DNA of 64,000 bases from Buttiauxella sp. B2. GTDB taxonomy: Bacteria; Pseudomonadota; Gammaproteobacteria; Enterobacterales; Enterobacteriaceae. Position numbers and translations under genes: made by a program. Within the stretch, counting starts at the first letter, position 1, and every line of letters begins with the position of its first letter. The stretch is from assembly GCF_006376615.1 (NCBI RefSeq), contig NZ_VEXQ01000011.1:62001-126000 (forward strand). Reading direction: 5' to 3'. Shown piece after piece: positions 4,887 through 31,194 of the stretch. A model generated the notes under the pieces. It was not told where the DNA came from. It saw only the letters and a list, made by a program, of their open reading frames with translations, and did no database searches.

Positions 4887-4908
4887 CATAATGATAATCG
4901 GGGAAAAA

Positions 4909-5382: not shown

Positions 5383-5392
5383 GGAATTTTCT

Positions 5393-7040: not shown

Positions 7041-7055
7041 GCGAGAGAAAACAAT

Positions 7056-8620: not shown

Positions 8621-8622
8621 TT

Positions 8623-8864: not shown

Positions 8865-8922
8865 ATTGTCCTGTTCTGCTTTGTGCTACTTCCGATGATC
8901 TTGCACTGCTAAGGACTGAGTA

Positions 8923-17024: not shown

Positions 17025-17600
17025 ATGAAGGCATATAAGCCACTTGCAGTCCTTATTACTGCGTTACTGCTACAAGGTTGTGTTGCTGCCGCAGTAGTGG
17101 GTACCGCGGCTGTCGCCACCAAAACCGCGACAGACCCACGTTCCGTCGGTACTCAGGTTGATGATGGTACTCTGGAATTACGCGTAAATAGCGCATTGAA
17201 TAAAGACGAACAAATCAAGAAAGAAGCGCGTATTAACGTCAGCGCATATCAGGGTAAAGTACTGCTGGTAGGCCAGGCGCCTAACACCGAGCTTGCATCC
17301 AGGGCCAAACAAATCGCGTTGGGCGTTGAGGGCACCACCGAGGTGTACAACGAAATCCGTATCATGGCACCCATTGGTCTGGGCACGGCGTCATCAGACA
17401 CCTGGATAACCACCAAAGTGCGTTCGCAATTGCTGGCAAGCGATCAGGTGAAATCGACCAGTGTGAAAGTCACGACCGAGAATAGCGAAGTATTCTTGTT
17501 AGGTTTAGTGACAGACAGAGAAGCCAAAGCAGCGGCAGATATTACCAGCCGGGTCAGTGGCGTGAAGCATGTGACCACAGCGTTTACGCTTCTGAAGTAA
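17025..17600 (+). CDS. dolP: Division- and outer-membrane-associated lipoprotein DolP (YraP)
   Basis: This is a 191-residue lipoprotein with lipobox LQGC (Cys19) and two BON domains, about residues 45-110 and 120-190. DolP sits in the outer membrane, binds anionic phospholipid and supports envelope integrity at the division site. The AAGGAGT ribosome-binding site is ideal and lies nine bases after diaA. A hairpin at 17612-17630 (CCCTCTC against GAGAGGG) follows the gene. Confidence 0.95.
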   Translation: MKAYKPLAVLITALLLQGCVAAAVVGTAAVATKTATDPRSVGTQVDDGTLELRVNSALNKDEQIKKEARINVSAYQGKVLLVGQAPNTELASRAKQIALGVEGTTEVYNEIRIMAPIGLGTASSDTWITTKVRSQLLASDQVKSTSVKVTTENSEVFLLGLVTDREAKAAADITSRVSGVKHVTTAFTLLK

Positions 17601-17611
17601 TTTCGAAATAT

Positions 17612-17630
17612 CCCTCTCTTCTGGAGAGGG
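17612..17630 (+). terminator. Hairpin between dolP and the PRD regulator gene
   Basis: CCCTCTC and GAGAGGG flank a five-base loop between the convergent genes. There is no clear T tract, so termination is tentative. Confidence 0.4.
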
Positions 17631-17638
17631 CTCGCCCC

Positions 17639-19555
17639 TTAAAACCGACTCAAACAATCCATTGCCACCATTTTAAACTCCTCGAAGCTCTGGCTGTCGC
17701 GTAAACGTGGCATCGCCCTTTCGCGCAGGAAAGTGACAAACAAATCGTAAATTGCCATCGCTTCTTCGTACTCGCTTTTGCTGATTGCCAGCAAGAAGAT
17801 GACATGCGCCGTTTCATCACCCCAACTTATCCCCTGCGGTGCAAGAACGGTGTATACCACGGTTTTATTCGCCATTAACCCCAATGAGTGAGGCAGCGCA
17901 ATGCCCTCGCCCAACACGGTGCCGACAATTGCCTCACGCTCAACCACTGATGGATAAAAATCCGCACCAACATACCCTTCCTGCTCAAGCTGCTGGCAGA
18001 GCGCACTGAACAATTCCTGCTGTGTCATCGGTTTATCAATTACCCGGAAATGGCTGGCATCAAAGAATTTTTCCAGCATGTACGGGCGTGTTCTATCCAC
18101 CAATACCAGCTTCCCTAGCTGTTCGAGTTGATACTCCGTTGGGAAGGGTGCGACCACCACTGTCGGTTTTTGTTTATCGCTGACGCGAGCCGTGGAGATA
18201 ACAAAATCTTCATCCACGCAGTCTAACTGTTCATAGTCACGCAGCGAGATAATGCGCGTGACCTCAATTTGTGGGTACTTGCGCAGCAGCATGGCCTGAA
18301 TCATACGTACAGTTGAATTACCGGTATCGCACACCAGCAGCACGCGCGGATGGCGTTGGTAGCCGATGTTGTAATGCCGTTCCAACCCGACACCAATATG
18401 CAGCACCAGGAAACCAATTTCGTTTTCGCTGATGACATAAGGCGTGTATTTCCCCCAGCTCGACACCGCTGCCAGCGTCATGTCATAAGCCATTGGATAG
18501 TGCTGTTTGATATTGTTGAGCAAAGGATTGGGGATATTTATCTGATAACGCACGCGGGTGATCATGGTTTTGATATGCGTAAGCAAATCCGCATGCAACT
18601 GCTTATCTGTCAGCAAGTTATAGTTATAGTTGCTGTTGATAAAACTCAGAATGTAGTTCACCAACGCCTCGTCATCGTCGGCGCTAATAGCGCTTGCGGC
18701 TACCTGTTGTACCTGGCGTGACGCGATATGAACTTGCAGCCACTGTTCTTCCGCTTCAGATAGCGGTTTTCCGGCCAGTATCTGCAATAACACCGCTATT
18801 TGCCGTGCGGCTTCGCGCACCGCCTCGTCAACATTGTCGGCGCTAAACTCCGGCAGTGGATAGCCCTCGCTAATACGGCGAACCGCGACGGCACAGTACA
18901 AACGGATGAACTGTTCCCCCTCGTCAGTCAGGCGGATTCGGCAACGAGTGAAACAGTTATGCAGTTCAGCCGCCAGTTGTTCCGGCACGCCTGCGTTAAG
19001 CACTTCTTCGGTCAATAACGGGTTTTCGCTGTCTTCTTGTGTCAATTGCCAAAGCAATTCAGTCAGGCAGGCACGAACGGACATTTCGCTGCCGAATAGC
19101 TTCATACCGTGACGGGGACGGGTTTCAATTGTCAGGTTATATCGAGCAAGCCAGTCGCGCACTTCGGCCATATCACTTTGCAATGTCGCACGGCTAACAA
19201 ACCACTCTTCCGCCAGATCTTCGAGTTTTATAGAGAAAGCAGATGTCAGAAAGCGCACGACCAGATAATGCACACGTTCCGGGGAGTTCCGTGGGATGCG
19301 CAGCTGGCGTGAAGGTTGCTGCACAAGAGCCTGGTAAAGAGCGGGATCCTCAATATTGAGCTGATAACCCGCGCCGCGACTAAGAATAAATTGCGCACCA
19401 TGCCCAGCCATCAACGCATTTAAAGCAGTAATATCCGTGCGCACCGTGCGGGTAGAAACGGATAAACGCCGCGCCAGTTCATCCTGGGGCAGCGTCTCGT
19501 TTTGTAGCATCTCAAACAACTGGGCCAGCCGAAGGTTGGGTAATCTCACTGACAT
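17639..19555 (-). CDS. PRD-containing transcriptional regulator with EIIB and EIIA domains (MtlR/BglG type)
   Basis: The 638-residue regulator has, in order: an HTH_11 domain (about 1-60), an Mga-like HTH (about 95-170), PRD1 (about 190-290), PRD2 (about 300-400), a GatB-like IIB domain (about 404-490) with Cys409 in LLVCDTGNST, and a mannitol/fructose-type IIA domain (about 500-638) with His556 in GIALPHSLG. Such proteins are DNA-binding activators whose activity is set by PTS phosphorylation. It lies at the downstream end of the same-strand cluster that reaches 26309 and is its likely regulator. No standard PTS permease is encoded in that cluster. Confidence 0.88.
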   Translation of the reverse strand: MSVRLPNLRLAQLFEMLQNETLPQDELARRLSVSTRTVRTDITALNALMAGHGAQFILSRGAGYQLNIEDPALYQALVQQPSRQLRIPRNSPERVHYLVVRFLTSAFSIKLEDLAEEWFVSRATLQSDMAEVRDWLARYNLTIETRPRHGMKLFGSEMSVRACLTELLWQLTQEDSENPLLTEEVLNAGVPEQLAAELHNCFTRCRIRLTDEGEQFIRLYCAVAVRRISEGYPLPEFSADNVDEAVREAARQIAVLLQILAGKPLSEAEEQWLQVHIASRQVQQVAASAISADDDEALVNYILSFINSNYNYNLLTDKQLHADLLTHIKTMITRVRYQINIPNPLLNNIKQHYPMAYDMTLAAVSSWGKYTPYVISENEIGFLVLHIGVGLERHYNIGYQRHPRVLLVCDTGNSTVRMIQAMLLRKYPQIEVTRIISLRDYEQLDCVDEDFVISTARVSDKQKPTVVVAPFPTEYQLEQLGKLVLVDRTRPYMLEKFFDASHFRVIDKPMTQQELFSALCQQLEQEGYVGADFYPSVVEREAIVGTVLGEGIALPHSLGLMANKTVVYTVLAPQGISWGDETAHVIFLLAISKSEYEEAMAIYDLFVTFLRERAMPRLRDSQSFEEFKMVAMDCLSRF

Positions 19556-19597
19556 TTCCTTTCGTTAAACGGGCGCAGAAAGCGCCCGGCACAACAA

Positions 19598-20749
19598 CTA
19601 CTTAGCAGGTGTGAAGATCATCTGTGACGGGCTTCCTGCCGCACTGTAATCCTCAACAAAAGTCAGTTTTCCACTCTCAGGTGCCACACTAAAACGAGTA
19701 ATGTTGTCGCTGCGCTGATTCATGACATACAGGTACTTACCATTATTTCCAAGAGTTACACTGCGCGGGTAATCACCACGCGTCCAGATATCGTCCTGAT
19801 GAGTCAGTTTGCCGTTCGCTGTAACGCTAAAGTGCCCAATGCTGTTATGCAAACGGTTAGCAACATACAGCTGTTTCCCGTCCAGGCTTTGCACCAGACC
19901 CGCAGCAAAGTTGGTTCCCCTGAAGCCTTTCGGGAGCGAAGAAATACTCTCGCCTTCAGTTAACGTCCCTTTACTAACATCAAGCTGATAGTGGGTAAGC
20001 GTAGAAGCCTCTTCGTTGATTAACCATAAACCATCGCCTTTTGGCGTGAAAATAAAGTGGCGTGGACCGGCACCTTTCGATGAGGCATCAATAAAGGGAG
20101 GATCGTTCGGCGTGAGTTTGCCAGTGGCATCATCGAAACGATATTGGTAGATCCTGTCCAGGCCAAGATCGGTGGTGAAAACAAACTTCCCACTCGGATC
20201 GGCGGCGATCATATGCGCATGCGGGCCATTATGATCACTTGCCGCAAAACTGCCTTCCACGGCAGCTTCAGGTTTTGCTGCACCCGCAGGTCCAGAATCT
20301 TGTCGAGTATCGGTAGCTTCACCAAGGCTGCCGTCCTCTTTCACCGGTAATACCGCAACGGAACCGCTAATGTAATTAGCCACCAGCAAATGACGTTCGT
20401 TTGGCGTAAGCGACAAATAAACCGGCCCTGCACCGCTCGATGAAACCTGGTTTAGTTCTTTCAGGCTCCCATCATCCTCTACACGCAAGGCAGCAATAAC
20501 GCCTTTTTCTACTTCACTTGCCACATACAGCGTTTTGCCATCTTTCGATGCCGTCAACTGAGCTGCATTTGGCAATGCACTGACTAACGTTTTATTGCTC
20601 AGTGCGCCCGTTTTTGTATCAACCTGAAAACGGTACACCCCTTCACCGTTGGGATTATAGGTGCCAACCCAAGCGAATTGCGTTTGTGCCGCAGCTGAAC
20701 CGGCAAGCAGAGCAAGTGAAGCGATAAGAAGATTACGTGTTGCAGGCAT
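19598..20749 (-). CDS. Secreted beta-propeller lactonase (YbhE/6-phosphogluconolactonase family)
   Basis: The 383-residue protein is a seven-bladed beta-propeller of the lactonase/3-carboxymuconate cyclase family. Repeating blades such as LYVASEVEKGVIAALRV, HLLVANYISGSVAVLPV and LYVANRLHNSIGHFSV are visible. Cytoplasmic Pgl (YbhE) is about 331 aa and lacks a signal. This protein starts with a Sec signal peptide, MPATRNLLIASLALLAGSAAA, so it should act in the periplasm. AGGATCTCCG precedes the ATG. It is same-strand with, and 79 bp after, the aldolase gene, suggesting hydrolysis of an aldonolactone before uptake. The substrate is unknown. Confidence 0.75.
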   Translation of the reverse strand: MPATRNLLIASLALLAGSAAAQTQFAWVGTYNPNGEGVYRFQVDTKTGALSNKTLVSALPNAAQLTASKDGKTLYVASEVEKGVIAALRVEDDGSLKELNQVSSSGAGPVYLSLTPNERHLLVANYISGSVAVLPVKEDGSLGEATDTRQDSGPAGAAKPEAAVEGSFAASDHNGPHAHMIAADPSGKFVFTTDLGLDRIYQYRFDDATGKLTPNDPPFIDASSKGAGPRHFIFTPKGDGLWLINEEASTLTHYQLDVSKGTLTEGESISSLPKGFRGTNFAAGLVQSLDGKQLYVANRLHNSIGHFSVTANGKLTHQDDIWTRGDYPRSVTLGNNGKYLYVMNQRSDNITRFSVAPESGKLTFVEDYSAAGSPSQMIFTPAK

Positions 20750-20780
20750 CGGAGATCCTCATCGTTTATATGATTTGTCG

Positions 20781-20823
20781 CCCTCACCCAACCCCTCTAT
20801 CCAGGAGAAGATCGGGGTGAGGG
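20781..20823. repeat. Extragenic inverted repeat (CCCTCACCC type)
   Basis: CCCTCACCC (20781-20789) pairs with GGGTGAGGG (20815-20823) in the gap between the aldolase and lactonase genes. Dispersed extragenic elements of this kind are common in enterobacteria. It may modulate expression between the two genes. Confidence 0.5.
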
Positions 20824-20828
20824 TTATT

Positions 20829-21569
20829 TCAACCAACCAACTTCTTCGTCATATCCAGCAAAATACGCACATCTTCCGGACGCGTATTGCCGCTCGCTGG
20901 ATCAATAATCGAGCTATAAATGTGCGGAATGACTTTGCTTACTCCAGCGTCCAGAGCGATCTTCAGAATGTCTTCGTAGTTTTCCAGGTCGATCCCGCCG
21001 GTTGGTTCAAGCCAGAAATCGTGTTTCGCGCAAGCAAGTGCGACCGCACGGAATTCGTCCTGGCATTTCAAGCCGCCCATCGGGAAGTATTTGATTGAGC
21101 TACCGCCCATATCTTTCAGCAACTTGACCGCAGTTTCGACCGGCACGATGCCATCTGGTGCGCCAGAACTCAATGGCCCGGTAGAGATTTTCACCATCCC
21201 CACCATCCCTGTAGGGGAAACGAGGCCATTCACCACTGTATCTTTTTGCCCAAGTAACGCGCGGCTTGTGCCAACACCCGTAAATACCTGATTTACATGC
21301 TGTGGCTGCACCTGGGCCGAGATTTCGCTAACCATCGCTGACTGGTTCGGATCGCCCGCCCCCAAACCCACAGACAGCGCGTTATCAATTAACGCGGCAT
21401 ACTCGCGCATATCCGCCACCGCGCTGGCAACATCGGGATAGTTTTTTGACAGCACACCAACCAGCACATGGCCTTCCGCTGCTTCATAAATCTCTTTGGC
21501 ATTCTGTTTGGAGCCCGCCAGCACATTCAGGCACACACGGTCACGGTAAAAATTGGGGGTCAGTTTCAT
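20829..21569 (-). CDS. dagF: 2-dehydro-3-deoxy-phosphogluconate aldolase, DagF/EF_0839 family
   Basis: This 246-residue TIM-barrel protein belongs to the aldolase family named after Salmonella DgaF/DagF and Enterococcus EF_0839. That family cleaves 2-keto-3-deoxy-6-phosphogluconate to pyruvate and glyceraldehyde 3-phosphate. The predicted Schiff-base lysine is Lys160 in GGSSIKYFPMGGL; LEPTGGIDLENY (188-199) forms the phosphate site. It overlaps the upstream PLP-enzyme gene by four bases, so the two steps are translationally coupled. It is distinct from the classical Eda. Confidence 0.85.
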   Translation of the reverse strand: MKLTPNFYRDRVCLNVLAGSKQNAKEIYEAAEGHVLVGVLSKNYPDVASAVADMREYAALIDNALSVGLGAGDPNQSAMVSEISAQVQPQHVNQVFTGVGTSRALLGQKDTVVNGLVSPTGMVGMVKISTGPLSSGAPDGIVPVETAVKLLKDMGGSSIKYFPMGGLKCQDEFRAVALACAKHDFWLEPTGGIDLENYEDILKIALDAGVSKVIPHIYSSIIDPASGNTRPEDVRILLDMTKKLVG

Positions 21570-22684
21570 GCCTGTTGCTCCTTGCAGGTGTTTGCTTTAA
21601 TGCAGCGGTAAATAATGTCGAGTTGTTCTGGGCTTACACTGCGCACATCGGCTTCGATAATCCCTTCGTTGGCCTTATAGCCACGGAAGTAAATTGCGTA
21701 TTCGCCTTGTTTTAGGGCGCTGACCAACTCGCCCGTGCTGATACCAATAATCGCTTCGTCGAATTTGATTTCACTACGGGCGATGTCACGACCTGCGGCA
21801 TCCCACACTACACGGGCGCTCACGCCATCAAGCGTGTTCAGGCTGGTGATAAACGGTGCCATTTTTTCGGCCATCTGAGCACCGCTTTCTTTCGCCGCAG
21901 TAAGGTAGTGTTCGATAGCACAAGTCAGCCCAAGAATGCCCTCTTTACCCACTTTCATCGCACGGCCAATGCCGCCGGTTTGTAGTTTCACCCACTCGAC
22001 GTACTGCTCTTTACCTATTACCAGCCCGCTGGTTGGCCCTTCAATGGCTTTTGCGCCACTGTAAATCACCAGTTCCGCGCCTGCACGGTAGTAGCACTGC
22101 AAATCTTCTTCAGCCGCAGCATCCACAATCAGCGGTAAATTATGTTTCCGCGCGACCACTACAGCCTGCTCGACACTGAGCATGCTTTTCTGTACCGAGT
22201 GGTGCGATTTGATATACAAAATGGCGGCGGTACGTGGGGAAATCGCCGCAGCCAATTGGTCTGCTGAACATTCGTTGGCGTAACCGGCTTCCACGACTTT
22301 ACCGCCACCGAGATTCACCATGGTGCCAACCGGCGCGCCAAAGTTCACGTTATGGCCTTTCGGCAACACGATTTCGTTGTTCTCAAGCGGGGCGGCGTGA
22401 AGGTTTTCAATCAGCCAGGCGTTATCTTTTACCAGCACCGCAGCCACCGATTGTGCGATGCCAGAAGATGCACAAGACACTACAGTCGCCGCTTCAACGT
22501 CCAGCAGTTTTGCAATGTATTCCCCGGTTTTGTTCACCAGGTCTTTCATTTCAAAGTAATGATTCATTCCGGTCGTCACGGCTTCAACCACTTCCGGGCG
22601 GGGGGTAGAAACACCAAGCGCCGTCATGCGACCAGAAGCGTTAATCACTTGTTTTAAATTGTATTTTTCATAAATCGAAGGCAT
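21566..22684 (-). CDS. PLP-dependent ammonia-lyase, DgaE/SelA-like
   Basis: This 372-residue fold-type I PLP enzyme has its probable PLP lysine at Lys212 in IYSGAKAIEGPTSGL and the cofactor aspartate in LPLIVDAAAEED (about Asp188). It resembles the N-terminal half of SelA but is not selenocysteine synthase: it is shorter and lies in a sugar-acid cluster. The closest characterised relative is DgaE, which converts D-glucosaminate 6-phosphate to 2-keto-3-deoxygluconate 6-phosphate and ammonia. The start at 22684 (MPSIYEKYNLKQ) has a GGGAAAGAAG ribosome-binding site and overlaps the amidohydrolase gene by 17 bp. Longer starts run deep into that gene. Confidence 0.83.
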   Translation of the reverse strand: MPSIYEKYNLKQVINASGRMTALGVSTPRPEVVEAVTTGMNHYFEMKDLVNKTGEYIAKLLDVEAATVVSCASSGIAQSVAAVLVKDNAWLIENLHAAPLENNEIVLPKGHNVNFGAPVGTMVNLGGGKVVEAGYANECSADQLAAAISPRTAAILYIKSHHSVQKSMLSVEQAVVVARKHNLPLIVDAAAEEDLQCYYRAGAELVIYSGAKAIEGPTSGLVIGKEQYVEWVKLQTGGIGRAMKVGKEGILGLTCAIEHYLTAAKESGAQMAEKMAPFITSLNTLDGVSARVVWDAAGRDIARSEIKFDEAIIGISTGELVSALKQGEYAIYFRGYKANEGIIEADVRSVSPEQLDIIYRCIKANTCKEQQA

Positions 22685-23801
22685 GTTCTTCTTTCCCTTG
22701 TTCGGTTGTAAACCACTTCCCGGCACGAACCGCGGCGAGCGCGACCAGCAACTGCTCACCCGTGAGCGTCTGAAGTTCTGAATCGGTAAATACTGTCGGC
22801 TGTTGGCGCAAAGCAAAAATGGTCAGGTCACCGTCAAGGCCAACGGACAAACGTCCTTTATTTGCCAGACGCAAGCCATCGGCTGCTTGCTCAGTAACGC
22901 AATCAATCACTTGTGGCATAGACATGCCAATCGACAGGAATTTGGACATCACCGCACCAAGACTGTGAACCGGGCCATTTATGCGGTTACGGCAATAAAT
23001 ATCGGAGCTGATGGTGTGAGGTAAAATACCCTGACTGATAGCGACTTTCGCCACGTCAAAACTGAAACTAGCGCTACCGTGGCCGACATCAAGACGCACG
23101 CCACGAGCAATAGCATTGGAAATCGACGCTCGTAATTCACCGCCTGGCGTAAGAATGCGGTTCGGTTTACCGTTATAGCAGTGGGTAATAATGTCGCCGC
23201 TCGTCAGTAAATCGGCAATCTCGTCAAGGTCAGGCGGGTTGTTGCCGATGTGAACCATCAGCGGTAACTCACCGTTTTCACGCTGGATTTCTTTGGCACT
23301 TTCCAGCGGTTTAATACCGTTGGCACCTACAACGCTGCTGCTCATACGCGCTTTAATGCCGACGATAAAGCCTGGGTGGCGCTTTATAGCGCCGGACACC
23401 GCGGCTTTGTCGATATTTGCCATATCAGACAGTTCATTCTGTGCAATCAGCCCAACGCGAGAGATGTTCAGTAACGCGTAAACATCTGTTCTGGCTTTGC
23501 GAGTTATCTCGTAAAACTCGTCAATGTCGTCAGCGCCAGTGCTTCCGGCATCCACCACGGTTGTCACGCCCGTATTGATGCCGATGCTGTCAGGCTCATC
23601 ATGATAAATCGGGGATTTTTGGTAACAGTGAACGTGAGAATCAATCCAGCCTGCGCTTACATAGTATTCGCCATTAAGCTGGCGTTCTTCTTTTGCCTCG
23701 CCGGTTACTTCACCCAACGCGGCAATTTTTCCGTCTTTCAGCGCGATATCGATAACCGTTTCGTCCACCAGACATGCGTTGCGCAGGATTAAGTCGAACA
23801 T
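22668..23801 (-). CDS. Putative amidohydrolase, EF_0837 family
   Basis: The 377-residue protein belongs to the amidohydrolase superfamily (dihydroorotase-like; EF_0837/AHA_3915 type). HxH metal ligands are His56 and His58 in WIDSHVHCY, a candidate carboxylated lysine is Lys150 in FIVGIKARM, and LDVGHGSASF supplies a further histidine. In this setting it may strip an N-acyl or N-carbamoyl group before the ammonia-lyase acts, but the substrate is unproven. The ATG at 23801 follows GAAGGAGAAAAAC, a strong ribosome-binding site; the frame extends 16 codons further without support. Confidence 0.82.
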   Translation of the reverse strand: MFDLILRNACLVDETVIDIALKDGKIAALGEVTGEAKEERQLNGEYYVSAGWIDSHVHCYQKSPIYHDEPDSIGINTGVTTVVDAGSTGADDIDEFYEITRKARTDVYALLNISRVGLIAQNELSDMANIDKAAVSGAIKRHPGFIVGIKARMSSSVVGANGIKPLESAKEIQRENGELPLMVHIGNNPPDLDEIADLLTSGDIITHCYNGKPNRILTPGGELRASISNAIARGVRLDVGHGSASFSFDVAKVAISQGILPHTISSDIYCRNRINGPVHSLGAVMSKFLSIGMSMPQVIDCVTEQAADGLRLANKGRLSVGLDGDLTIFALRQQPTVFTDSELQTLTGEQLLVALAAVRAGKWFTTEQGKEEHAFDL

Positions 23802-23858
23802 GTTTTTCTCCTTCAGGGACAGAGGGTGGAGAAGCGCGAAGCTTTCCACCCATCCGTG

Positions 23859-24503
23859 CTACAGAGCAATCGGGAAGAATGCCCCAAAGATCATTGCGCC
23901 AAGAATTGCGCCACCAGTAATCGGTTTGTTCCACAGGTAAAACAGCAGCGAACCAATCAGCGAGCCGATACCAATCGGAATGGAAGCGGTCATGGCGCTC
24001 AGGATAATCAACGGCCCAAGGAACCGGCCCGATGCGTTACCCGCGCCCATCATTACGTCTGCACCGTAAGTGGAGTCGCTCTGGTTGATGGTGAATTTAC
24101 GCGCCAGGATTATCAGGTAGCCAATCGCCACGCCAATCACCAGGCCGGTAGCCAAGGAAGCTGCAAAGTTCGCCACCGGGAAGACATAGCCAGCACCCAG
24201 CAGCAGCGCCGGAACACCAAGCCCTACGCCGGTTTGAATCGCACCACCGATATCCAGAATCCCGACCAGCGAGCCTTCAATGATGCGCGCAAACAGGAAG
24301 CTGGCACCAAACGCCGCGACTGCCCCGTAAACTCCGGTATCCATCCCGGCACGCAACATGGAAACAAAAGCCACTTCGTTAAACGCACCAATGCCGTACA
24401 GGTAGTACATGTGTGTCCCAGCGAATACGCCGGAAGAAAGCAGGCCAACAAAAATCGGGAATGACCAGTCGGCGTACCAAAAACCTTTATTCTCTTCCAT
24501 CAC
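23859..24503 (-). CDS. DUF4310 family membrane protein (EF_0833 type)
   Basis: The 214-residue protein is strongly hydrophobic, with about six transmembrane segments and many Gly/Ala-rich helices (GTHMYYLYGIG, TGVGLGVPALLLGAG). It belongs to DUF4310, known only from EF_0829-EF_0839-like clusters. Paired with the DUF4311 protein eight bases upstream, it probably forms a membrane channel or carrier. Function has not been shown as far as I know. A PTS IIC/IID-like role is my inference from the company of the two small cytoplasmic proteins and the PTS-controlled regulator. Confidence 0.8.
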   Translation of the reverse strand: MMEENKGFWYADWSFPIFVGLLSSGVFAGTHMYYLYGIGAFNEVAFVSMLRAGMDTGVYGAVAAFGASFLFARIIEGSLVGILDIGGAIQTGVGLGVPALLLGAGYVFPVANFAASLATGLVIGVAIGYLIILARKFTINQSDSTYGADVMMGAGNASGRFLGPLIILSAMTASIPIGIGSLIGSLLFYLWNKPITGGAILGAMIFGAFFPIAL

Positions 24504-24511
24504 AGGCTCCG

Positions 24512-25288
24512 TTATTTTCCGCTCAGCGAGTTATGAATCAGATCCAGCCAATTCGGCACGGTCAGATGGAAGGATTCGATCATTTTCATATCGAAGCCAC
24601 GGAAGAAGGCGCTCAGCACAAACAGCGCGATAATGGCGGCCATCATCACTTTCGTGACACGGTTCCAGCCACTTTCTTCCACACCTTTACCAATCAGGAT
24701 ACCGAGCACCAAACCAGGTACTGCGTTACCCATAATCAGTTGTGCGCAGCCACCGAAAATCGTGGCCCAGAAGCCTGATTTCTTACCGGCATCAATCGCC
24801 GCCAGCCAGAAAATAACCGGCATCACTGTGTTAACCAGCAAGTTAGCGGCAGGAACCAGAACTTTTACCGCGGTAACCTGTAATGCTGCCGGAACAGCGG
24901 AAGCAGTGGAGTTAAGGAAGGCAACAACAATCATGCCGATGACACCACAAGCGATGGCCATCTTTCTTGGGTCATGCAGGGTTTCAGCCACATTACGGTT
25001 TTTCACCATCAACGCGGCAGCACCCCAGTTTGGGATAATGCGGTGGTCAACGTCCTGGGTAAAAGCACCCGCTGCAACCGAGGAGGCCCAGGCGTTGAAG
25101 AAGAAACCAAGTCCAAAGGAGAAGTGTGAAGCAGGATCCCCTTCGCAGGAGTTCAGCTCACCCAGTGTACGGAAAGCGCCCATCCCTTGAGTGGTTGGCG
25201 CGTGAAACATACGTGCAGCCCCGGCGCCAACACCTACACCGACGAGCCCCCCGATTATTAGCGATTTTATTAGTATAATTAAGAACAT
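24512..25288 (-). CDS. DUF4311 family membrane protein (EF_0832 type)
   Basis: The 258-residue polytopic membrane protein has about six or seven hydrophobic segments. A polar loop ELNSCEGDPASHFSFG (about 45-60) and FFFNAWASSVAAGAFTQDVDH (about 62-82) look like conserved, possibly substrate-facing, regions. It belongs to DUF4311, again restricted to this cluster type. It is read just before the DUF4310 gene with an eight-base gap, so the two are very likely made together. I infer a transport role; there is no recognisable ATPase. Confidence 0.8.
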   Translation of the reverse strand: MFLIILIKSLIIGGLVGVGVGAGAARMFHAPTTQGMGAFRTLGELNSCEGDPASHFSFGLGFFFNAWASSVAAGAFTQDVDHRIIPNWGAAALMVKNRNVAETLHDPRKMAIACGVIGMIVVAFLNSTASAVPAALQVTAVKVLVPAANLLVNTVMPVIFWLAAIDAGKKSGFWATIFGGCAQLIMGNAVPGLVLGILIGKGVEESGWNRVTKVMMAAIIALFVLSAFFRGFDMKMIESFHLTVPNWLDLIHNSLSGK

Positions 25289-25312
25289 CTGTCTGTCCTT
25301 TCTGTGTGATTT

Positions 25313-25609
25313 TTAAGATGCGATGAAGTCTATTTTGTCCATATTGATGGCTGTAACGTTGACGCTAACATCCAGCTCTACGCTGAACATTCGCTTTTCG
25401 CGCTTCAGAAAGAAGAACAAAAATGCCTCTTTCTTTACCTGGACTCGAGCCTGAATGACCTGCACATCCTGTGGCTCGATACGCAGTAAAATGTGGGGAG
25501 AAGATTTCAGAACCGAGCCCTGAACATGATTCAGGGCGTCAGAAAATGCTTTGGCTTTGGTATCGCCACGCCCCTTCACTCTCACCGTTTCTGAGAAGTG
25601 TTCTTTCAT
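25313..25609 (-). CDS. DUF4312 family small cytoplasmic protein (EF_0831 type)
   Basis: This is a 98-residue soluble protein, basic and with alternating beta-strand pattern (LKSSPHILLRIEPQDVQVIQARV, EKRMFSVELDVSVNVTAI). It belongs to DUF4312. The ATG at 25609 comes two bases after the stop of the SFCGS gene, and GGAAAG is five bases upstream; a GTG at 25615 leaves no spacing and was not chosen. Role unknown; a partner of the membrane pair is likely. Confidence 0.8.
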   Translation of the reverse strand: MKEHFSETVRVKGRGDTKAKAFSDALNHVQGSVLKSSPHILLRIEPQDVQVIQARVQVKKEAFLFFFLKREKRMFSVELDVSVNVTAINMDKIDFIAS

Positions 25610-25611
25610 AC

Positions 25612-25974
25612 TCACTTTCCGTACTTCTTGGCCCAGGCCTGCACCAGACGCTCGCCCAGCTCTTCTTTGTCCATAAAGCCGAAGCCCAGAACATTGTTAC
25701 CTTCGTTAATTGCAGTAACACCTTCTTCCACTGAACGCATGCCGTACTTGGCTTTATAGCCGTGTTTGGTTTGTGCAGTAATGGCACCCGCACCGCCGCT
25801 TCCGCAGAAAGAAATACCAAAGGTGGCATTTTCTGCTTTCATCACATCGCCCAGTTTCATATCAGCGGCAACGCCTGCAATAACCACGGCGCGACCACCC
25901 GCTTTTTCAATCCCTGCGGCCACTTTCTGGCCTTTACCCAAACGGTCGCCAATAACTACGGTAATTTGTTCCAT
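25612..25974 (-). CDS. Glycine-rich SFCGS family protein (EF_0830 type)
   Basis: The 120-residue soluble protein has a Rossmann-like beginning (EQITVVIGDRLGKGQKVAAGI) and the family-defining glycine-rich segment FGISFCGSGGAGAIT (residues 52-66) with a single cysteine, Cys57. Size, fold pattern and a reactive-looking Cys/Ser near a Gly loop recall a PTS IIB protein, but the canonical CPTG motif is absent. It is translated directly before the DUF4312 gene. Confidence 0.8.
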   Translation of the reverse strand: MEQITVVIGDRLGKGQKVAAGIEKAGGRAVVIAGVAADMKLGDVMKAENATFGISFCGSGGAGAITAQTKHGYKAKYGMRSVEEGVTAINEGNNVLGFGFMDKEELGERLVQAWAKKYGK

Positions 25975-25991
25975 CTGAATCTCCTGATTAT

Positions 25992-26309
25992 TTAAAGATT
26001 GTCTTTCGCGACTTCAAAATGCACTGATAACAACCACGCCTCTTCAACCGGCAAATTGCCAAACTGCTCCACGACTTCTTTTGCCATCTCCAGAGAATCA
26101 TCAGAGATTTCCTCGAACAGACTCTCTTCAACTTCTGGCAACGGTTCACCGGTCAGTGACCGATGAGCCATGGCGCGAACGTGGGAAGTCAGCATCTGTT
26201 CTTGCACCGCATTCGGCGTGATGTTTCTGGTCTTTAGCAGCGCATTGATAAACGCCAGCACTCGTTCTGTGAGCTGTGCAGCCTCGGTACTCCCGGCTTC
26301 ATTAACCAT
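25992..26309 (-). CDS. Stand-alone PRD-domain protein (EF_0829 type)
   Basis: This is the first gene of the cluster and encodes a 105-residue, acidic, all-helical protein matching the small PRD-domain family EF_0829/AHA_3910. PRDs are the PTS-phosphorylated regulatory domains of BglG-type proteins, but here the domain stands alone, with no DNA- or RNA-binding part. Candidate phosphorylatable histidines are in TSHVRAMAHRSL (about 42-53) and LLSVHFEVA near the end. The ATG at 26309 has GGAG five bases upstream; a GTG at 26327 is less likely. Confidence 0.78.
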   Translation of the reverse strand: MVNEAGSTEAAQLTERVLAFINALLKTRNITPNAVQEQMLTSHVRAMAHRSLTGEPLPEVEESLFEEISDDSLEMAKEVVEQFGNLPVEEAWLLSVHFEVAKDNL

Positions 26310-26476
26310 TACCGCTCCGTTATTCACACTACGTACCTCTTCGCTGTCAGGCTTTTAAGGTATCGGGAGGGGATGAAGGTTTGTAGCGAGTTGTTTTCCA
26401 CTTTGAAGCGGAAATCCCAGAGGCAAGAGTGATATGCACCACAAAAAAGGGCTGAATCATGATAATTCGCTAGTTT

Positions 26477-26496
26477 AATGTGATTACTGTCACGGA
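26477..26496. promoter_or_regulatory. Candidate CRP site upstream of the EF_0829-like operon
   Basis: AATGTGATTACTGTCACGGA matches the CRP consensus TGTGA-N6-TCACA at nine of ten core positions (TGTGA at 26479, TCACG at 26490). It lies about 170 bp upstream of the first gene at 26309. This would suit catabolite control of a sugar-acid pathway. The -10 and -35 boxes were not assigned. Confidence 0.6.
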
Positions 26497-26626
26497 TTAA
26501 GGAGGCCGAAATCATTAACTACAGTGATAGTTTTTGATCGAAAGTGTGATTTGAGGAATGTTTTGGGGGAAATATTGGAAAGGCTTATGGTGGGGTTACG
26601 AAAACGGTCTTCAAGGTGAGGGCTAT

Positions 26627-26704
26627 GGTGGATGTCGCTTGCGCTAATCCACCCTACAAATCAGTTCGGCTTTTGTAGGTCGGGTAAGCATCGCGCAACC
26701 CGAC
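26627..26704. repeat. Two adjacent extragenic palindromes
   Basis: GGTGGAT...ATCCACC (26627-26653) and GTCGGGT...ACCCGAC (26679-26704) lie in the 433-bp gap between the cluster and the TRAP gene. Both have the inner 'gcttgcgc / gcatcgcgc' type core of dispersed enterobacterial extragenic repeats. A related element is at 41137-41220. The rest of the gap holds only the CRP-like site. Confidence 0.6.
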
Positions 26705-26742
26705 ACAATACAGAAAAAAGGTGACCTTCAAATCAGTCTGTC

Positions 26743-28050
26743 TTATTTCACCAGCCCCATGCTTTGTGGCAGCGCCATAGAGACTGCAGGTAAGTAAGTC
26801 ACCAACATCAAAACAATCGCAATCACCGCAAAGAAGGGCAACAGCGGTTTTATTACCCGTTCTATCTTAATATCGCCGACTTTACAGCCGGTAAATAAGA
26901 TAGGGCCAACCGGTGGCGTAATCGTCCCCAGCGACAAGTTAAACACCATCATGATACCGAAATGCACCGGGTCCATACCAAACTGCATGCAAATTGGCAG
27001 GAAGATTGGGGTGAATATTAATACCGCTGGAGTGGGGTCCATAAACGTTCCGACCAACAACAACACCAGGTTCATAATCAGCAAAATAACAATGAAGTTA
27101 TCTGTCGCGGAAAGTAAGCCAGAAGCAATCAGCGCAGGTATTTTGGTGAATGCCATTACCCAGGACATGATGGACGAAGCGGCTAGCATGAAAATAACAA
27201 TGGCCGTCATTTTGGCGGTTGCCAGGAAGATTTTCGGAATATCTTCTGCTTTGATATTGCGATAAATAATGCCGAGCACCAGGGAATAAACCACCGCGAT
27301 TGCCGATGCTTCTGTTGCTGTGAATATCCCACCCAGAATGCCGCCAATAACCACGACAATCATCATCAAGCTTGGAATCGCATCAAACAGAATACGTAAG
27401 GTCTGGCCTTTATTGGCTGAGCGGTCAGAAACATAACCGCGACGTTTAGCAATAAAACCGGCCACCAGCATAACGCCCAGACCCCACAAAATACCGGGAA
27501 CGTAACCCGCCATAAACAGCGCAGAGATAGAAACGCTGCCTGCTACGGTTGCGTAAACAATCAGTGAGTTGCTCGGTGGAATCAGCATACCCGTAGGTGC
27601 CGAAGCAATGTTAACCGCTGCGCTAAACGCCGGGTCGTACTGCTCTTTTTTCTGAATTGGCGACATAATCCCGCCGACAGCGGCAGCAGAAGCCACGCCT
27701 GAACCACTGATGGAGCCAAACAGCATATTGGCAACCACGTTAGTCTGGGCCAATGGACCTGGCAGGAAATTACTGACCATCTTCGCGCAGTTAATTAAAC
27801 GAATGGCTATTCCACCATTATTCATTAAATTCCCCGCCAGAATAAAGAAAGGAATGGCGAGTAACGCAAAGGAATCAAGGCCGACAAAAACGCGCTGTGC
27901 GGAAGTTAATATCGCACTATCAAACGGTAAAATAAGTAACATTGCAGCGAAAGACGAAATCCCGATGCTGATACTGATTGGCGCTCCGGCCAATAACAGG
28001 AACAGAACTCCGCTAAACATTACTAAGGCAACAATAATCGCAATATCCAT
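26743..28050 (-). CDS. TRAP transporter large permease subunit (DctM family)
   Basis: The 435-residue protein has about 12 hydrophobic helices and DctM signatures, including PFFILAGNLMNNGGIA, MLFGSISGSGVASAAAVGGIM and the C-terminal TPPVGPILFTGCKVG. It is the sodium-driven translocation subunit of a tripartite ATP-independent periplasmic transporter. The start is at 28050, 12 bp after the DctQ gene. No catabolic gene accompanies the transporter, so the substrate (usually an organic or sugar acid) cannot be named. Confidence 0.92.
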   Translation of the reverse strand: MDIAIIVALVMFSGVLFLLLAGAPISISIGISSFAAMLLILPFDSAILTSAQRVFVGLDSFALLAIPFFILAGNLMNNGGIAIRLINCAKMVSNFLPGPLAQTNVVANMLFGSISGSGVASAAAVGGIMSPIQKKEQYDPAFSAAVNIASAPTGMLIPPSNSLIVYATVAGSVSISALFMAGYVPGILWGLGVMLVAGFIAKRRGYVSDRSANKGQTLRILFDAIPSLMMIVVVIGGILGGIFTATEASAIAVVYSLVLGIIYRNIKAEDIPKIFLATAKMTAIVIFMLAASSIMSWVMAFTKIPALIASGLLSATDNFIVILLIMNLVLLLVGTFMDPTPAVLIFTPIFLPICMQFGMDPVHFGIMMVFNLSLGTITPPVGPILFTGCKVGDIKIERVIKPLLPFFAVIAIVLMLVTYLPAVSMALPQSMGLVK

Positions 28051-28062
28051 GTCGACACCTAA

Positions 28063-28605
28063 TCAATCTTGTTTCGAAGAAAATTTTCTGAACAGCCCAT
28101 ATTGGTTATACAGGCAATAGAACAGCGTCATTGCACCGCTCAATGGAATAGCAATGTAGATAATGCCGATTGGAATTTGTAATGCAGAATCAAGCTGCGC
28201 CATCTGGCGGCTCATACCGATATAACCCCCGAAGGTCAGTACCAGTAATGCAAATATTGAGGTGGCAAGTTCGCCGACTATCTCAAGCGACAGGCATATT
28301 TTTCGCGGCAACTTATCGCGCATAAACGTAATAGCCATATGCTCGCGTAGGCCGAAGACATAAGCCCCGCCAATAAGTACCAGCCAGATAAATAAATAAC
28401 GCGCCAGCACTTCACTGACCGCACTTGGGCTATTAAACAAATAACGGGAAGCAACCTGCCAGGTGACCAGCAAAGTCATTAAACCCACAAGCAGAATACA
28501 TAGCAAAGACGCAACTTTATCGACGGCCTGTTTTACTCGTGTGATGTACGAATAAAAATCAGATTTGGACACGGCGGCGGAGGGGACAGACTGAGAACTT
28601 TTCAT
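28063..28605 (-). CDS. TRAP transporter small permease subunit (DctQ family)
   Basis: The 180-residue, four-helix membrane protein has the DctQ pattern (LVTWQVASRYLFNSPSAVSEVLARYLFIWLV then GGAYVFGLREHMAI). It bridges the DctP binding protein and the DctM permease. It lies between the two other TRAP genes with short gaps, implying a dctP-dctQ-dctM operon. Confidence 0.9.
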   Translation of the reverse strand: MKSSQSVPSAAVSKSDFYSYITRVKQAVDKVASLLCILLVGLMTLLVTWQVASRYLFNSPSAVSEVLARYLFIWLVLIGGAYVFGLREHMAITFMRDKLPRKICLSLEIVGELATSIFALLVLTFGGYIGMSRQMAQLDSALQIPIGIIYIAIPLSGAMTLFYCLYNQYGLFRKFSSKQD

Positions 28606-28651
28606 AAAATCTCCACTGGGGGCCAGAAAGCCCCCTGACTTCTAAGCCGTA

Positions 28652-29665
28652 TTACTCGGCCAACTCACGAATTTTTTCGTACAACGTTTTTTGTTCAGGT
28701 GTGGTTAACATGGCAGATTGCAGCGGCTTGCAACGTTCCTGGAAAGGTTTGATATCCACATCCGTGAAGACTGCACCGTTATCTTTTGCAACCTTGCGTG
28801 CACCATCAAGCGCCTGATCCCACAGTTCAAACTGGGTTTGGGTGCTCTCTTTGGCCAGTTTACGGAACAGGTCTCGGTCGCTATCCGTCATTTTGGCGAG
28901 GAAACTTTCGTTAGCCACTAACAGGTCCGCTACCATCACGTGGCGGGTTGTAGAGAAGTAAGGTGCAACTTCGTATTGCTTGAGGTCAGCGTAGGTAATT
29001 TCGTTGTTTTCAGCGCCGTCCAGAACGCCCTGCTGAATTGCGGAATAGACCTCACCTTGCCCCATTGGGACACCGGTTCCCCCCATGCAATCCAACATTT
29101 TAATCATGGTGTCGGACTGCATGACACGAATTTTCTTGCCCTTCATATTTTCTGGGCTGGTGACAGCGGCACCTTTGGTGTAAATGCTGCGCGCACCGGC
29201 TGTATACGCGGTGACGACTTCAAAACCGGTGCCTTTAGTAGAAGCAAACAAACTGTCCAGCACACCGGAAGTAAACACTTTGCGCTGGTGCTCTGGGTTG
29301 TCGTACACATACGGCATTGCCAGCACAGAGAAGTTCTTATTAAAGTTTTCAACCAATGGGTTTGCGACAACCGCCATTTGAATTGCACCGGACTGAACCA
29401 GTTCCAGCGATGCACGCTGGTCACCCAACAGCTCGTTAGGATGGATTTCTAATTTGTAGCGGCCATCTGTCGCTGATTCCAGCTTATCGCTGAATGAGAC
29501 TAATGCTTTGTATTGTGGGTTATTTTCAGATTGGTTAAACGCTGTTTTCAGCGTTACAGCCCCTGTTGGAGCTTCGTCATCGCCACATCCGCTCAGTAAA
29601 ATCGTTGCCGCAACAGCGTTAGCAACCAGCGAAATTTTTGGCAAAACCTGTTTCAAATGCAGCAT
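28652..29665 (-). CDS. TRAP transporter substrate-binding protein (DctP family), lipoprotein
   Basis: This is a DctP-type binding protein of about 337 residues. Its signal peptide ends in a lipobox LSGC (Cys27 from the 29665 start), so it should be membrane-tethered; most DctP proteins are soluble. The family arginine region RSIYTKGAAVTSPENMKGKKIRVM and the following GAENNEITYADLK are clear. The ATG at 29665 gives a usual signal-peptide length with GGGAG eight bases upstream; an ATG at 29686 adds seven residues. It is the first gene of the operon. Confidence 0.88.
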   Translation of the reverse strand: MLHLKQVLPKISLVANAVAATILLSGCGDDEAPTGAVTLKTAFNQSENNPQYKALVSFSDKLESATDGRYKLEIHPNELLGDQRASLELVQSGAIQMAVVANPLVENFNKNFSVLAMPYVYDNPEHQRKVFTSGVLDSLFASTKGTGFEVVTAYTAGARSIYTKGAAVTSPENMKGKKIRVMQSDTMIKMLDCMGGTGVPMGQGEVYSAIQQGVLDGAENNEITYADLKQYEVAPYFSTTRHVMVADLLVANESFLAKMTDSDRDLFRKLAKESTQTQFELWDQALDGARKVAKDNGAVFTDVDIKPFQERCKPLQSAMLTTPEQKTLYEKIRELAE

Positions 29666-29783
29666 CCTTATGACTCCCTTATCCATAATCTCTGTGTGGC
29701 ACTAGTACGTTTTGATGCATTTACTCACTGAATGAATTAAAAATGAAACATTATTTTAATTAATAAGAAATTTTGATTCACTT

Positions 29784-29806
29784 TGTAATTGAGATCTCAA
29801 ATTACA
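29784..29806. promoter_or_regulatory. Palindromic candidate operator upstream of the TRAP operon
   Basis: TGTAATT, GAGATCTC and AAATTACA form a nearly perfect inverted repeat about 120 bp upstream of dctP. It looks like an operator for a dimeric repressor, but no regulator gene is nearby. The remainder of the 29666-30104 gap contains no gene I can support. Confidence 0.45.
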
Positions 29807-30058
29807 GAAAATCCTGGATAGAAAACTTACAATTTCTGACAGGTTTATTAGAAAGGAAAACTCACAAGCCGTGATGACATTGCAATTTTAGAGTGCTTTA
29901 TGGCAATCGTGCAGAGGTGAGGTAGATTTAGCCTTTCGCCGACTGGAGGAAATGAAGTATGAAACTCTCATGCGTTACGCTCGTGCATGCGGTGTTAATT
30001 TTAAACTGCAGCAAATATAAAAGCGGATACAAAGCCCAGTGACAGGTTTGGAACGAAT

Positions 30059-30089
30059 TCCCCCTTTCCCGCAGAGCAGAAAGGGGGAA
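30059..30089. terminator. Long GC-poor-flanked hairpin downstream of the 30105 gene
   Basis: CCCCCTTTC and GAAAGGGGG pair around an 11-base loop just after the stop of the minus-strand gene at 30105. There is no T tract, so it is a weak terminator candidate. Confidence 0.4.
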
Positions 30090-30104
30090 AAGCATTGGAA
30101 GGGA

Positions 30105-30686
30105 TTACTTAGCGGCGTTAGCCTTGATTTGAATAGAATCGGTATAAGTCACACGTACACTTTGGTTTACTTTCAGATCTTTCAAACGAGCCTGAACATC
30201 CGGGTCAACAACAGTGATTGTCTTCTGCTGGCCTTTAGGGCCTTCAAACGTAATTTCGTTATTTTTCAGATCAATGTGTTTGATTTTGAGCTGAACGTTT
30301 ACCTGGCGGAAAGCTTCATGCTCGCGGTCTGCTGGAGTGGCTTTCTCGATACCTTTGGTAGACGATGCAGTCGGTGCGGATTTATCAATATTCGTATCAA
30401 GAGCAACGGCTACGGAGCGCGTAACAGTGGTGTCGACAATATCACCCGCTTTCAAATTGGTCAGCGTACCAGCGTCTTCAGGAACGTTGAGTGACACTTT
30501 ATTCCCTTCAGTTCCTTCCAGCACCACAACATGGTTTTTTTGATCAACTGAAACCACTTTTGCGGAAAAGTGATCGGCCTGAAAATCACCGGAAATTGGC
30601 AGCAGCGCGGCGTTTGCGGCAAAAACACTGAACGCAAGCAGCGAAACGGTAGCGGCACTTTTGATAATCGTATGAATTGGTTTCAT
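30105..30686 (-). CDS. Periplasmic protein of unknown function with two internal repeats
   Basis: The 193-residue protein begins with a signal peptide (cleavage near ANA, residue 27). I recognise no named family. Two similar beta-rich units are visible: residues about 42-97 (AKVVSVDQKNHVVVLEG ... LKAGDIVDTTVTRSVAV) and about 132-189 (LKIKHIDLKNNEITFEG ... LKVNQSVRVTYTDSIQI). Each looks like a small beta-barrel, and a Ser/Thr/Lys-rich linker joins them. It lies between cybC and the TRAP operon, on the same strand as cybC but with its own ribosome-binding region (AAGGACATCTG). Confidence 0.7.
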   Translation of the reverse strand: MKPIHTIIKSAATVSLLAFSVFAANAALLPISGDFQADHFSAKVVSVDQKNHVVVLEGTEGNKVSLNVPEDAGTLTNLKAGDIVDTTVTRSVAVALDTNIDKSAPTASSTKGIEKATPADREHEAFRQVNVQLKIKHIDLKNNEITFEGPKGQQKTITVVDPDVQARLKDLKVNQSVRVTYTDSIQIKANAAK

Positions 30687-30750
30687 AAATCAGATGTCCT
30701 TATAAATTAAATGAAAATACACAAGCCCTGAAGGCAGAGCTAGTATCAGC

Positions 30751-31137
30751 TTAGCGGTATTTTTTATGGTAGGCATTGCGAGTGGTTTTAAACTCTTCTG
30801 CCGCCGCCTGTGCTTCTTTTACTTTACCTTCATTGGCAAGTTTCAGCGCACCGTCAATTTGCCCTACCAGCAACTCAAGGCCGTGGCGATAATCTTTCAT
30901 TTTTGCGCTGTCTGCTGCTTCGTTTTCAAGCTTAGCTGGAGCGCCTTTTTGCGCGTCCAGTGCTGCGGTGCGCATGTTGTTTAGCGAGGTTTTTAACTCA
31001 GCCGCGTTGTCAGTACTTAACACGGTTTTGTAATTCTCAGCGATGGTATCCATATCATCGCCAACTTCTTTTGCCATTACAGCACCTGTGAATAACACAG
31101 ATGATACTGCCAACATTGCAATTAGTTGCTTACGCAT
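30751..31137 (-). CDS. cybC: Soluble cytochrome b562
   Basis: The 128-residue precursor has a signal peptide ending in VMA and a mature four-helix bundle. The two axial haem ligands are conserved: Met7 of the mature protein (KEVGDDM) and the histidine near the C-terminus (NAYHKKYR, equivalent to His102). There is no CXXCH, so the haem is bound non-covalently. The C-terminal half is nearly identical to E. coli cytochrome b562. Its electron-transfer partner is unknown. The gene appears intact. Confidence 0.95.
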
Positions 31138-31194
31138 TACATCACCTTTTTATTATGTCGAAGAAGGGCGCTGCAGGACGCGCCCATTACCGTT

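Follow-up and report, generated by a model that had tools for sequence, protein, structure and literature searches.

A proposed PTS-type uptake system and linked catabolic enzymes in the EF_0829-EF_0839-like operon of Buttiauxella sp. B2

The phosphotransferase system (PTS) is among the best-studied bacterial uptake systems, and its permeases form a short list of classes. Here we consider an operon of Buttiauxella sp. B2 that might add to that list. It lies in a stretch of 64,000 nucleotides (contig NZ_VEXQ01000011.1, positions 62,001 to 126,000), referred to as the window, and consists of ten minus-strand genes that span 17639-26327. Its closest described relative is the cluster EF_0829-EF_0839/AHA_3910-3917 of NCBIfam, of which it is a member; the same families occur in the same order in Salmonella and Klebsiella. 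In Salmonella the counterpart extends from STM4440 to about STM4448; of these tags, 4440-4443 and 4447 were read and the others follow from the order. An earlier note, made by a model from the DNA letters, called the cluster undescribed. This holds insofar as the NCBIfam entries give no function, but the families are already named there as a conserved hypothetical set. With regard to the literature it was too strong, since one paper ties EF0839 loosely to amino sugars and had suggested amino-sugar import and processing around it (PMC7701990). Elsewhere in open-licence PubMed Central (PMC), the accessible passages with Salmonella or Enterococcus faecalis locus tags concern screens, expression, genome differences and control genes. 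No literature on DUF4310, DUF4311 or DUF4312 was found there, and the letters SFCGS appeared in seven papers, in other senses as judged by titles. The next relative is the Salmonella Dga system (dgaABCDEF), in which a DgaE-type lyase and a DagF-type aldolase act on an aminoaldonate 6-phosphate made by a PTS, and the substrates of DgaE and DagF relatives are 6-phosphates (PMC9529869).

We propose, with a probability of about one half, that the Buttiauxella operon encodes a PTS-type uptake system that phosphorylates its substrate and comes with dedicated catabolic enzymes. Enzyme I (EI) would charge HPr from phosphoenolpyruvate (PEP), and HPr would phosphorylate a histidine of a small stand-alone PRD protein. 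From the PRD protein the phosphoryl group would move on to Cys57 of the SFCGS protein, an RpiB-like protein serving as enzyme IIB (EIIB), and SFCGS would phosphorylate the substrate during entry through the membrane proteins DUF4311 and DUF4310; DUF4312 would be an accessory protein. The phosphorylated product would most likely be an N-acyl-2-amino-2-deoxy-aldonate 6-phosphate. An amidohydrolase would deacylate it, a DgaE-type lyase would deaminate it to an acid resembling 2-keto-3-deoxygluconate (KDG) 6-phosphate, and a DagF-type aldolase would cleave this acid, yielding pyruvate and a triose phosphate. Control would be exerted by a regulator with PRD and enzyme IIA (EIIA) domains and probably by CRP. 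The phosphoryl transfers are all inferred, as are the role of the permease, the identity of the substrate and the order of the enzyme steps; what the sequences themselves provide is the gene set, its conservation, the families, linkage to HPr and EI, a PRD-SFCGS fusion and remote homology.

In order of transcription, the genes encode the small PRD protein, SFCGS, DUF4312, DUF4311, DUF4310, the amidohydrolase, the DgaE-family lyase, the DagF-type aldolase, a lactonase and the PRD/EIIA regulator. All ten were found in the list of open reading frames (ORFs) and by NCBIfam and Pfam scans. Eight pass curated NCBIfam cut-offs (TIGR03581, TIGR01437, TIGR03583, TIGR03579, TIGR03580, TIGR03578, TIGR03577 and TIGR03582), and the regulator and lactonase were recognized through Pfam. 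The first gene starts with GTG at 26327; position 26309, where the earlier note had it begin, is an in-frame ATG of the same gene. Because neighboring genes overlap by 4-17 bases or are separated by at most 79 bases (taking the first plausible ATG of each), a single tight operon is the simplest reading of what had been described as ten same-strand genes in one or two operons.

The cluster is not a chance arrangement, because its eight core genes keep a single order in 75 of the 80 loci compared, all from other genomes. These loci are the best 80 of 498 confirmed relatives obtained in one contig scan with a DUF4311 alignment. This survey of gene neighborhoods had been suggested in the earlier note, and its outcome, together with the eight families over cut-off, confirms that the operon belongs to the EF_0829-EF_0839-like cluster. 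Among the five other loci, two begin near a contig end (L058 and L097), one has the SFCGS frame listed before that of PRD (L039), one is without a detected DUF4312 (L063) and one without a detected DagF (L112). The regulator travels with the cluster: it follows the core in 61 of the 80 loci and precedes it in 14, while in 5 none was detected. The lactonase, found in 29, is accessory rather than core. Judged by Pfam SFCGS, 141 of the 295 genomes from the window's family have the cluster, as does one of 274 genomes drawn from its class, that one being the window's own genome. In the phylum of Enterococcus viikkiensis (here Bacillota), 7 of 398 genomes have an SFCGS that scores above the cut-off. 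Families EF_0829 to EF_0833 are found, among other genera, in Salmonella, Klebsiella, Vibrio, Aeromonas and Enterococcus. The squid symbiont Aliivibrio fischeri, a laboratory organism, also has the cluster (L045), whereas a search of the E. coli genome collection at megablast sensitivity gave no match. Second, low-scoring PF14272 matches in two genomes (G305 and G351) proved by eye to be RpiB-like ORFs, not second clusters. SFCGS genes also turned up in six records of a phage collection (OR845273, OR850993, PQ520413, OR846593, OR847815 and OR848318); these are unannotated, most are shorter than 9 kb, two are labelled Listeria, and all resemble host DNA that was deposited under a phage label.

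Genes for HPr and EI stand beside the cluster in two settings that are unrelated to each other. The first is a pair of Bartonella plasmids of about 55 kb, where a gene for 671 residues that combines HPr with all three EI domains lies directly behind the cluster (Pfam on L032). Because the two plasmids are alike, this linkage is counted as one event. These plasmids (L032 and L036) also have the type VI secretion genes tssA and tssM. In one Bacillota genome (G731), HPr and then EI follow about 0.3 kb past the cluster on the same strand, after the order regulator-amidohydrolase-PRD-SFCGS-DUF4312-DUF4311-DUF4310-DgaE-DagF-HAD (HAD by eye). This genome has three EI matches in total, and thus the cluster-linked EI is an extra copy. 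Apart from Bartonella and this genome, no EI match above 36 bits was present at the surveyed loci (the 80 loci and the Bacillota loci). Many cluster hosts belong to groups that have a chromosomal sugar PTS. Weak 'EI' matches of 21-36 bits on the opposite strand in 12 loci were, by eye, NPr-like HPr frames (11 loci) or a longer frame (L116), and were left out of the EI count. Across Bacillota, EI is found in all seven genomes with an over-cut-off SFCGS, compared with 157 of 398 overall (hypergeometric 0.0014, with the 398 genomes taken, from their number and handles, as the same draw for both counts). Without the centre genome, which had been chosen for having the cluster, the co-occurrence is 6 of 6.

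The earlier note pictured a carrier without PTS involvement. As put, this is unsupported: besides the HPr/EI linkage, PRD and SFCGS resemble phosphoryl carriers, and the regulator has PRD domains plus, in the window and in Bartonella, EIIA. A cluster that brings HPr, EI, a histidine carrier, a cysteine carrier and two membrane proteins can phosphorylate a substrate on uptake. Supply of the phosphate during uptake is also suggested because the DgaE and DagF relatives act on 6-phosphates, yet a Pfam scan found no kinase family among the ten operon proteins and no kinase is annotated in the compact Bartonella operon.

The small PRD protein (25992..26327, minus strand; EF_0829 family, TIGR03582 132 bits) is the proposed EIIA-like phosphoryl carrier. 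His49 and His103 are invariant in 100 of 100 aligned relatives (of 119, after a length and identity filter), and both are retained, by eye, in five divergent loci (L130, L131, L133, L134 and L135). One relative has a solved structure (3nuf). Profile comparison with YhfY gave 93%, the profiles for YhfY, YhfT, YhfU and RpiB being built from three sequences each. The regulator (17639..19555, minus strand) has the arrangement HTH_11/Mga-PRD-PRD-EIIA (PF08279, PF05043, two stretches of PF00874, and PF00359 EIIA_2). The histidine of its IALPHS motif, which we take to be the EIIA active site, is present in 73 of 73 aligned regulators. EIIA_2 occurs in both full proteobacterial regulators scanned (window and Bartonella) and in a fragment (L037), but in none of the seven Bacillota regulators scanned (L033, L086, L130, L131, L133, L134 and L135); a weak PTS_IIB match was seen in three Bacillota regulators. 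The EIIA_2 of the regulator is therefore not a shared donor, and this makes the small PRD protein the candidate for a shared carrier.

The SFCGS protein (25612..25974, minus strand; EF_0830 family, TIGR03577 218 bits) would act as an EIIB-like phospho-cysteine protein. Cys57 lies within the motif CGSGGAGA, which is invariant in 99 of 99 aligned members (of 129, after the same kind of filter). SFCGS is a remote relative of RpiB/LacAB and of YhfU: profile comparison gave 91% for RpiB and 90% for YhfU, and at most 5% for every other family tried. LacAB_rpiB was matched by 9 of 14 SFCGS members (best E 3.5e-5). Five of the 14 matched DUF2620 (best E 0.017, with a weak reciprocal match at E 0.04), and a few other families were also matched weakly (best E 0.0032). 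By Pfam gathering score the window's SFCGS falls outside both RpiB/LacAB (15.6 bits against a cut-off of 24.7) and DUF2620/YhfU (12.6 bits against 25). In one Bacillota locus (L134), PRD and SFCGS are fused in a 254-residue frame, and a PRD match is seen in 1 of the 14 SFCGS members (E 1.9e-9). In another (L130), only the regulator, PRD, SFCGS, DUF4312, DUF4311 and DUF4310 were detected within 18 kb, and the catabolic enzymes are absent. Because the carrier genes stand there without the enzymes, SFCGS goes with transport and not with catabolism in that locus.

DUF4311 (24512..25288; EF_0832, TIGR03580 517 bits) and DUF4310 (23859..24503; EF_0833, TIGR03579 389 bits), both on the minus strand and both with hydrophobic segments, are proposed as the EIIC-like half and the second half of the permease. 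The earlier statement that the cluster holds no ABC, MFS, TRAP or canonical PTS permease was borne out by the Pfam scan, and since no known permease family is found among the ten proteins, the DUF proteins are the likely transporter. DUF4312 (25313..25615, minus strand; EF_0831, TIGR03578 126 bits) has no hydrophobic segments and no PDB relatives at E<=1, and its conserved residues include neither His nor Cys. DUF4311 matched DUF2232 weakly in 40 of 40 members (best E 1.9e-4). In the locus with the PRD-SFCGS fusion, DUF4311 is in two pieces (L134:8105-8824), reflecting a sequencing error or a broken gene.

Tentatively, and at somewhat less than even odds, the operon may represent a new class of PTS permease, with PRD as EIIA, an RpiB-like phospho-cysteine protein as EIIB, DUF4311/DUF4310 as the membrane part, and yhfT/yhfU/yhfY as a second branch. 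It is a candidate class: the wiring is PTS-like, but the homology tests for EIIB and for EIIC/EIID failed. No EIIB Pfam match was found in the ten proteins, and SFCGS had no match to SrlE-N. Relationships of DUF4310/DUF4311 to glucitol, mannose-type or YhfT proteins, and of SFCGS to the glucitol EIIB, were rejected for lack of profile similarity, in comparisons of low power.

Several points weigh against a substrate-phosphorylating system. DUF4310 and DUF4311 showed no profile similarity to AgaC, AgaD, SrlA, SrlE-C or one E. faecalis EIIC (the highest value was 15%, for DUF4311 with AgaD), in a test of low power in which the SrlA/SrlE-C pair also gave none and AgaC, AgaD and the E. faecalis EIIC were single sequences. 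The structure models are weak (mean pLDDT 62 for DUF4311 and 73 for DUF4310) and Foldseek found nothing in the PDB at E<=0.001, although models this weak leave room for distant homology to EIIC/EIID. HPr/EI linkage is known from two independent settings only, and it could serve the regulator alone. The association of EI with SFCGS (7/7, hypergeometric 0.0014) ignores kinship, and an eighth Bacillota genome (G632) is without an EI match; its SFCGS match is partial and below the cut-off (E 4.8e-4), and perhaps an RpiB. PRD domains are known as regulators, and a PRD as phosphocarrier toward a sugar would be new. SFCGS resembles an isomerase family by sequence, and the known EIIBs have their cysteine at another place. 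Finally, there are kinase genes near the cluster in E. faecalis (pfkB) and, by eye, in L131/L132.

A rival reading, which we consider less likely, is that the locus is regulated by the PTS and not driven by it. DUF4310/DUF4311 would then be a secondary carrier, and HPr and EI would phosphorylate just the PRD-containing regulator and the small PRD protein, switching transcription or carrier activity. The phosphate would come from a kinase elsewhere, or the substrate would enter already phosphorylated. PRD and EIIA domains serve regulation elsewhere, no similarity to EIIC was detected in the membrane proteins, and the pfkB kinase and a canonical EIIC near the E. faecalis locus, along with the kinase-like ORF near L131/L132, fit this explanation. 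It does not account for an SFCGS protein with an invariant cysteine beside the carrier genes, nor for the fusion of SFCGS to PRD, and the compact Bartonella operon with its own HPr-EI has no annotated kinase. The E. faecalis locus also holds a MupG-family protein, which together with the EIIC hints at a phosphorylated disaccharide there.

The catabolic enzymes indicate what the substrate might be. The amidohydrolase/deacetylase (22668..23801, minus strand; EF_0837 family, TIGR03583 556 bits), the proposed N-deacylase, has relatives in the PDB (8wzy, 612 bits; 2ics, 368 bits, the latter presumably EF0837 itself), and its His-x-His pair is invariant in 92 of 92 relatives. COG3964 enzymes reportedly deacetylate alpha-acetyl carboxylates of R configuration (Ornelas 2013). 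The DgaE-family ammonia lyase (21566..22684, minus strand; TIGR01437 596 bits), which uses pyridoxal phosphate (PLP), scored 373 bits with NF047797, the equivalog for D-glucosaminate-6-phosphate lyase, below the cut-off of 600; this fits a related but different substrate. Aligned with the structure of D-glucosaminate-6-phosphate lyase (7lc0), it is covered over residues 4-361 and retains both the His-His and the PLP-Lys motif. Across relatives, the PLP lysine and second histidine are present in 89 of 89 and the first histidine in 87 of 89. (The scanned amidohydrolase and DgaE sequences each carried two extra N-terminal codons.) The DagF-type KDG phosphate aldolase (20829..21569, minus strand; EF_0839 family) matched NF047796 with 393 bits (cut-off 300) and TIGR03581 with 407 bits, and has a PDB relative in 3m0z (467 bits). 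The set of deacylase, DgaE-type lyase and aldolase named in the earlier note is thus well supported by family, and the lyase has its catalytic residues. In 4 of 6 Bacillota loci (L131, L132, L134 and L135), DagF is followed by an ORF of 267-277 residues that looks HAD-like by eye and is perhaps a phosphatase of the pathway.

From these enzymes, our best guess for the substrate is an N-acyl aminoaldonate. A narrower idea, which would fit either transport mechanism, is that it is N-acetyl-D-glucosaminate (GlcNAc1A) released by the host's own chitin-active lytic polysaccharide monooxygenase (LPMO), so that the operon would be a phosphorylation-first counterpart of the ong pathway. We find this improbable. 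The chemistry is compatible with it, as C1-oxidized chitin ends are a 1,5-lactone or aldonic acid (PMC12017989). A route that begins with phosphorylation was considered by Jiang et al. (PMC9537276), and A. rivuli and A. bestiarum have distant or no OngB/OngC matches (PMC11653859). The cluster is present in loci of other Aeromonas species (L060 and L103). In a co-occurrence test of 80 genomes, LPMO_10 was found in 11 of 13 named beta- and gammaproteobacterial cluster hosts, which had no control group. The window's own genome, however, had no LPMO_10 match, and in the window's family LPMO_10 was found in 5 of 18 other cluster genomes against 6 of 18 cluster-free ones; the latter split into 6 of 8 genomes of at least 3 Mb and 0 of 10 smaller ones. 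In Bacillota, it was found in 0 of 7 genomes with the cluster and 0 of 23 with EI. GlcNAc1A from the host's own LPMO thus fails as a general rule, and scavenged GlcNAc1A or another N-acyl aldonate may be the substrate.

It is still less likely that SFCGS is an RpiB/LacAB-type isomerase or epimerase acting on the substrate, with transport carried out by DUF4310-DUF4312 alone. The RpiB and LacAB_rpiB matches given above (91%; 9 of 14 members, best E 3.5e-5) favor this assignment, and the cysteine is aligned. Yet the His-Asn stretch of RpiB is not retained in the alignment, the C-terminal tail of RpiB is, by eye, missing from SFCGS, and SFCGS remains with the carrier genes in the enzyme-free L130 and is fused to PRD in L134.

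That a TRAP-like transporter encoded at 26743-29686 is the true importer, leaving DUF4310-DUF4312 and SFCGS to another task, is very improbable: its genes adjoin the operon on the same strand in the window, but across a gap of about 0.4 kb, Klebsiella and Salmonella have cybC/pmbA at that place, and no such transporter is annotated beside the Bartonella plasmid operon. These genes, recognized by eye, lie upstream of the cluster and outside it, between the cluster and the pmbA side. As in Bartonella, the regions read from E. faecalis, Klebsiella and Salmonella have no TRAP genes annotated next to the cluster. In Klebsiella and Salmonella, the cluster is flanked by cybC/pmbA and, beyond a toxin-antitoxin pair, by nrdG. 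In the window flanks (17025-17639 and 26327-32547), a PmbA-family gene lies past the TRAP-like genes, and dolP/diaA/lpoA-like genes (by eye) are on the opposite side. The difference points to a rearranged chromosome or to a join made during assembly of the Buttiauxella genome.

The lactonase (19598..20749, minus strand; PF10282 328 bits) has an N-terminus that resembles a signal peptide by eye. A candidate CRP site with one mismatch to TGTGAN6TCACA lies upstream of the first gene (26479..26494). A single such site is not rare, as the whole window holds 2 where 2.28 are expected. Across loci, sites with at most one mismatch were found upstream of the PRD gene in 17 of 78, against 2 of 780 control windows downstream of it; these counts are not independent, because the loci are related. 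A published table lists STM4441-2 under crp (PMC11000858). Rfam (gathering scores) and tRNA scans of the whole window gave no match. At 3594-10077, ending about 7.6 kb from the operon, is a group of GatZ/KbaZ-like, EII-Sor, EIID-AGA, amidohydrolase and SIS genes, presumably an aga-type PTS cluster for N-acetylgalactosamine (GalNAc).

If the proposed phosphorylating uptake system is correct, a 'regulatory' PRD domain would be able to relay phosphate to a nutrient, five families without a known function (EF_0829 to EF_0833) would have a job, and there would be a lead on the uncharacterized yhf operon. 'Function unknown' would become testable with no more than PEP, EI, HPr and a pair of small soluble proteins. 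To the NCBIfam entries, which lack a function, we add the HPr/EI linkage, the PRD-SFCGS fusion and the kinship with YhfU and RpiB.

Unlike the Dga system, the operon has no mannose-family EIIABCD among its ten proteins (Pfam scan); it has an extra deacylase, a lyase below the DgaE equivalog cut-off and a regulator different from that of Dga. The ong pathway of Pseudoalteromonas (OngIT, OngB, OngC and KdgK) likewise deacetylates an N-acetyl aminoaldonate and then deaminates it toward KDG-6-phosphate, but its intermediates are unphosphorylated until KDG, and its components include an SSS carrier, a D-aminoacylase-like enzyme and a kinase (PMC9537276). By Pfam families, the ten proteins of the window operon include neither an SSS carrier nor a pfkB kinase. 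In the glucitol (Srl/Gut) PTS, the membrane part is also made of two small proteins and the EIIB bears a cysteine, but SrlA, SrlE and SrlB have no profile similarity to the DUF or SFCGS proteins. The yhfSTUVWXYZ operon of enterobacteria is similar in another way: YhfU is remotely related to SFCGS and YhfY to the small PRD protein, and YhfU adjoins the membrane protein YhfT. It differs in its other enzymes and in YhfT, which has no detectable similarity to DUF4310/DUF4311 (three YhfT sequences only). YhfT and YhfU are families of unknown function in Pfam. The Buttiauxella genome has a yhf operon of its own (G000:C67:26000-40000; L121), and another was seen in L156. The second PRD histidine of YhfY is seemingly lost in the Buttiauxella copy and retained in L151 and L152 (by eye). 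At the sensitivity applied, 3 of 5,426 E. coli genomes gave a DNA match to the Buttiauxella yhfTU.

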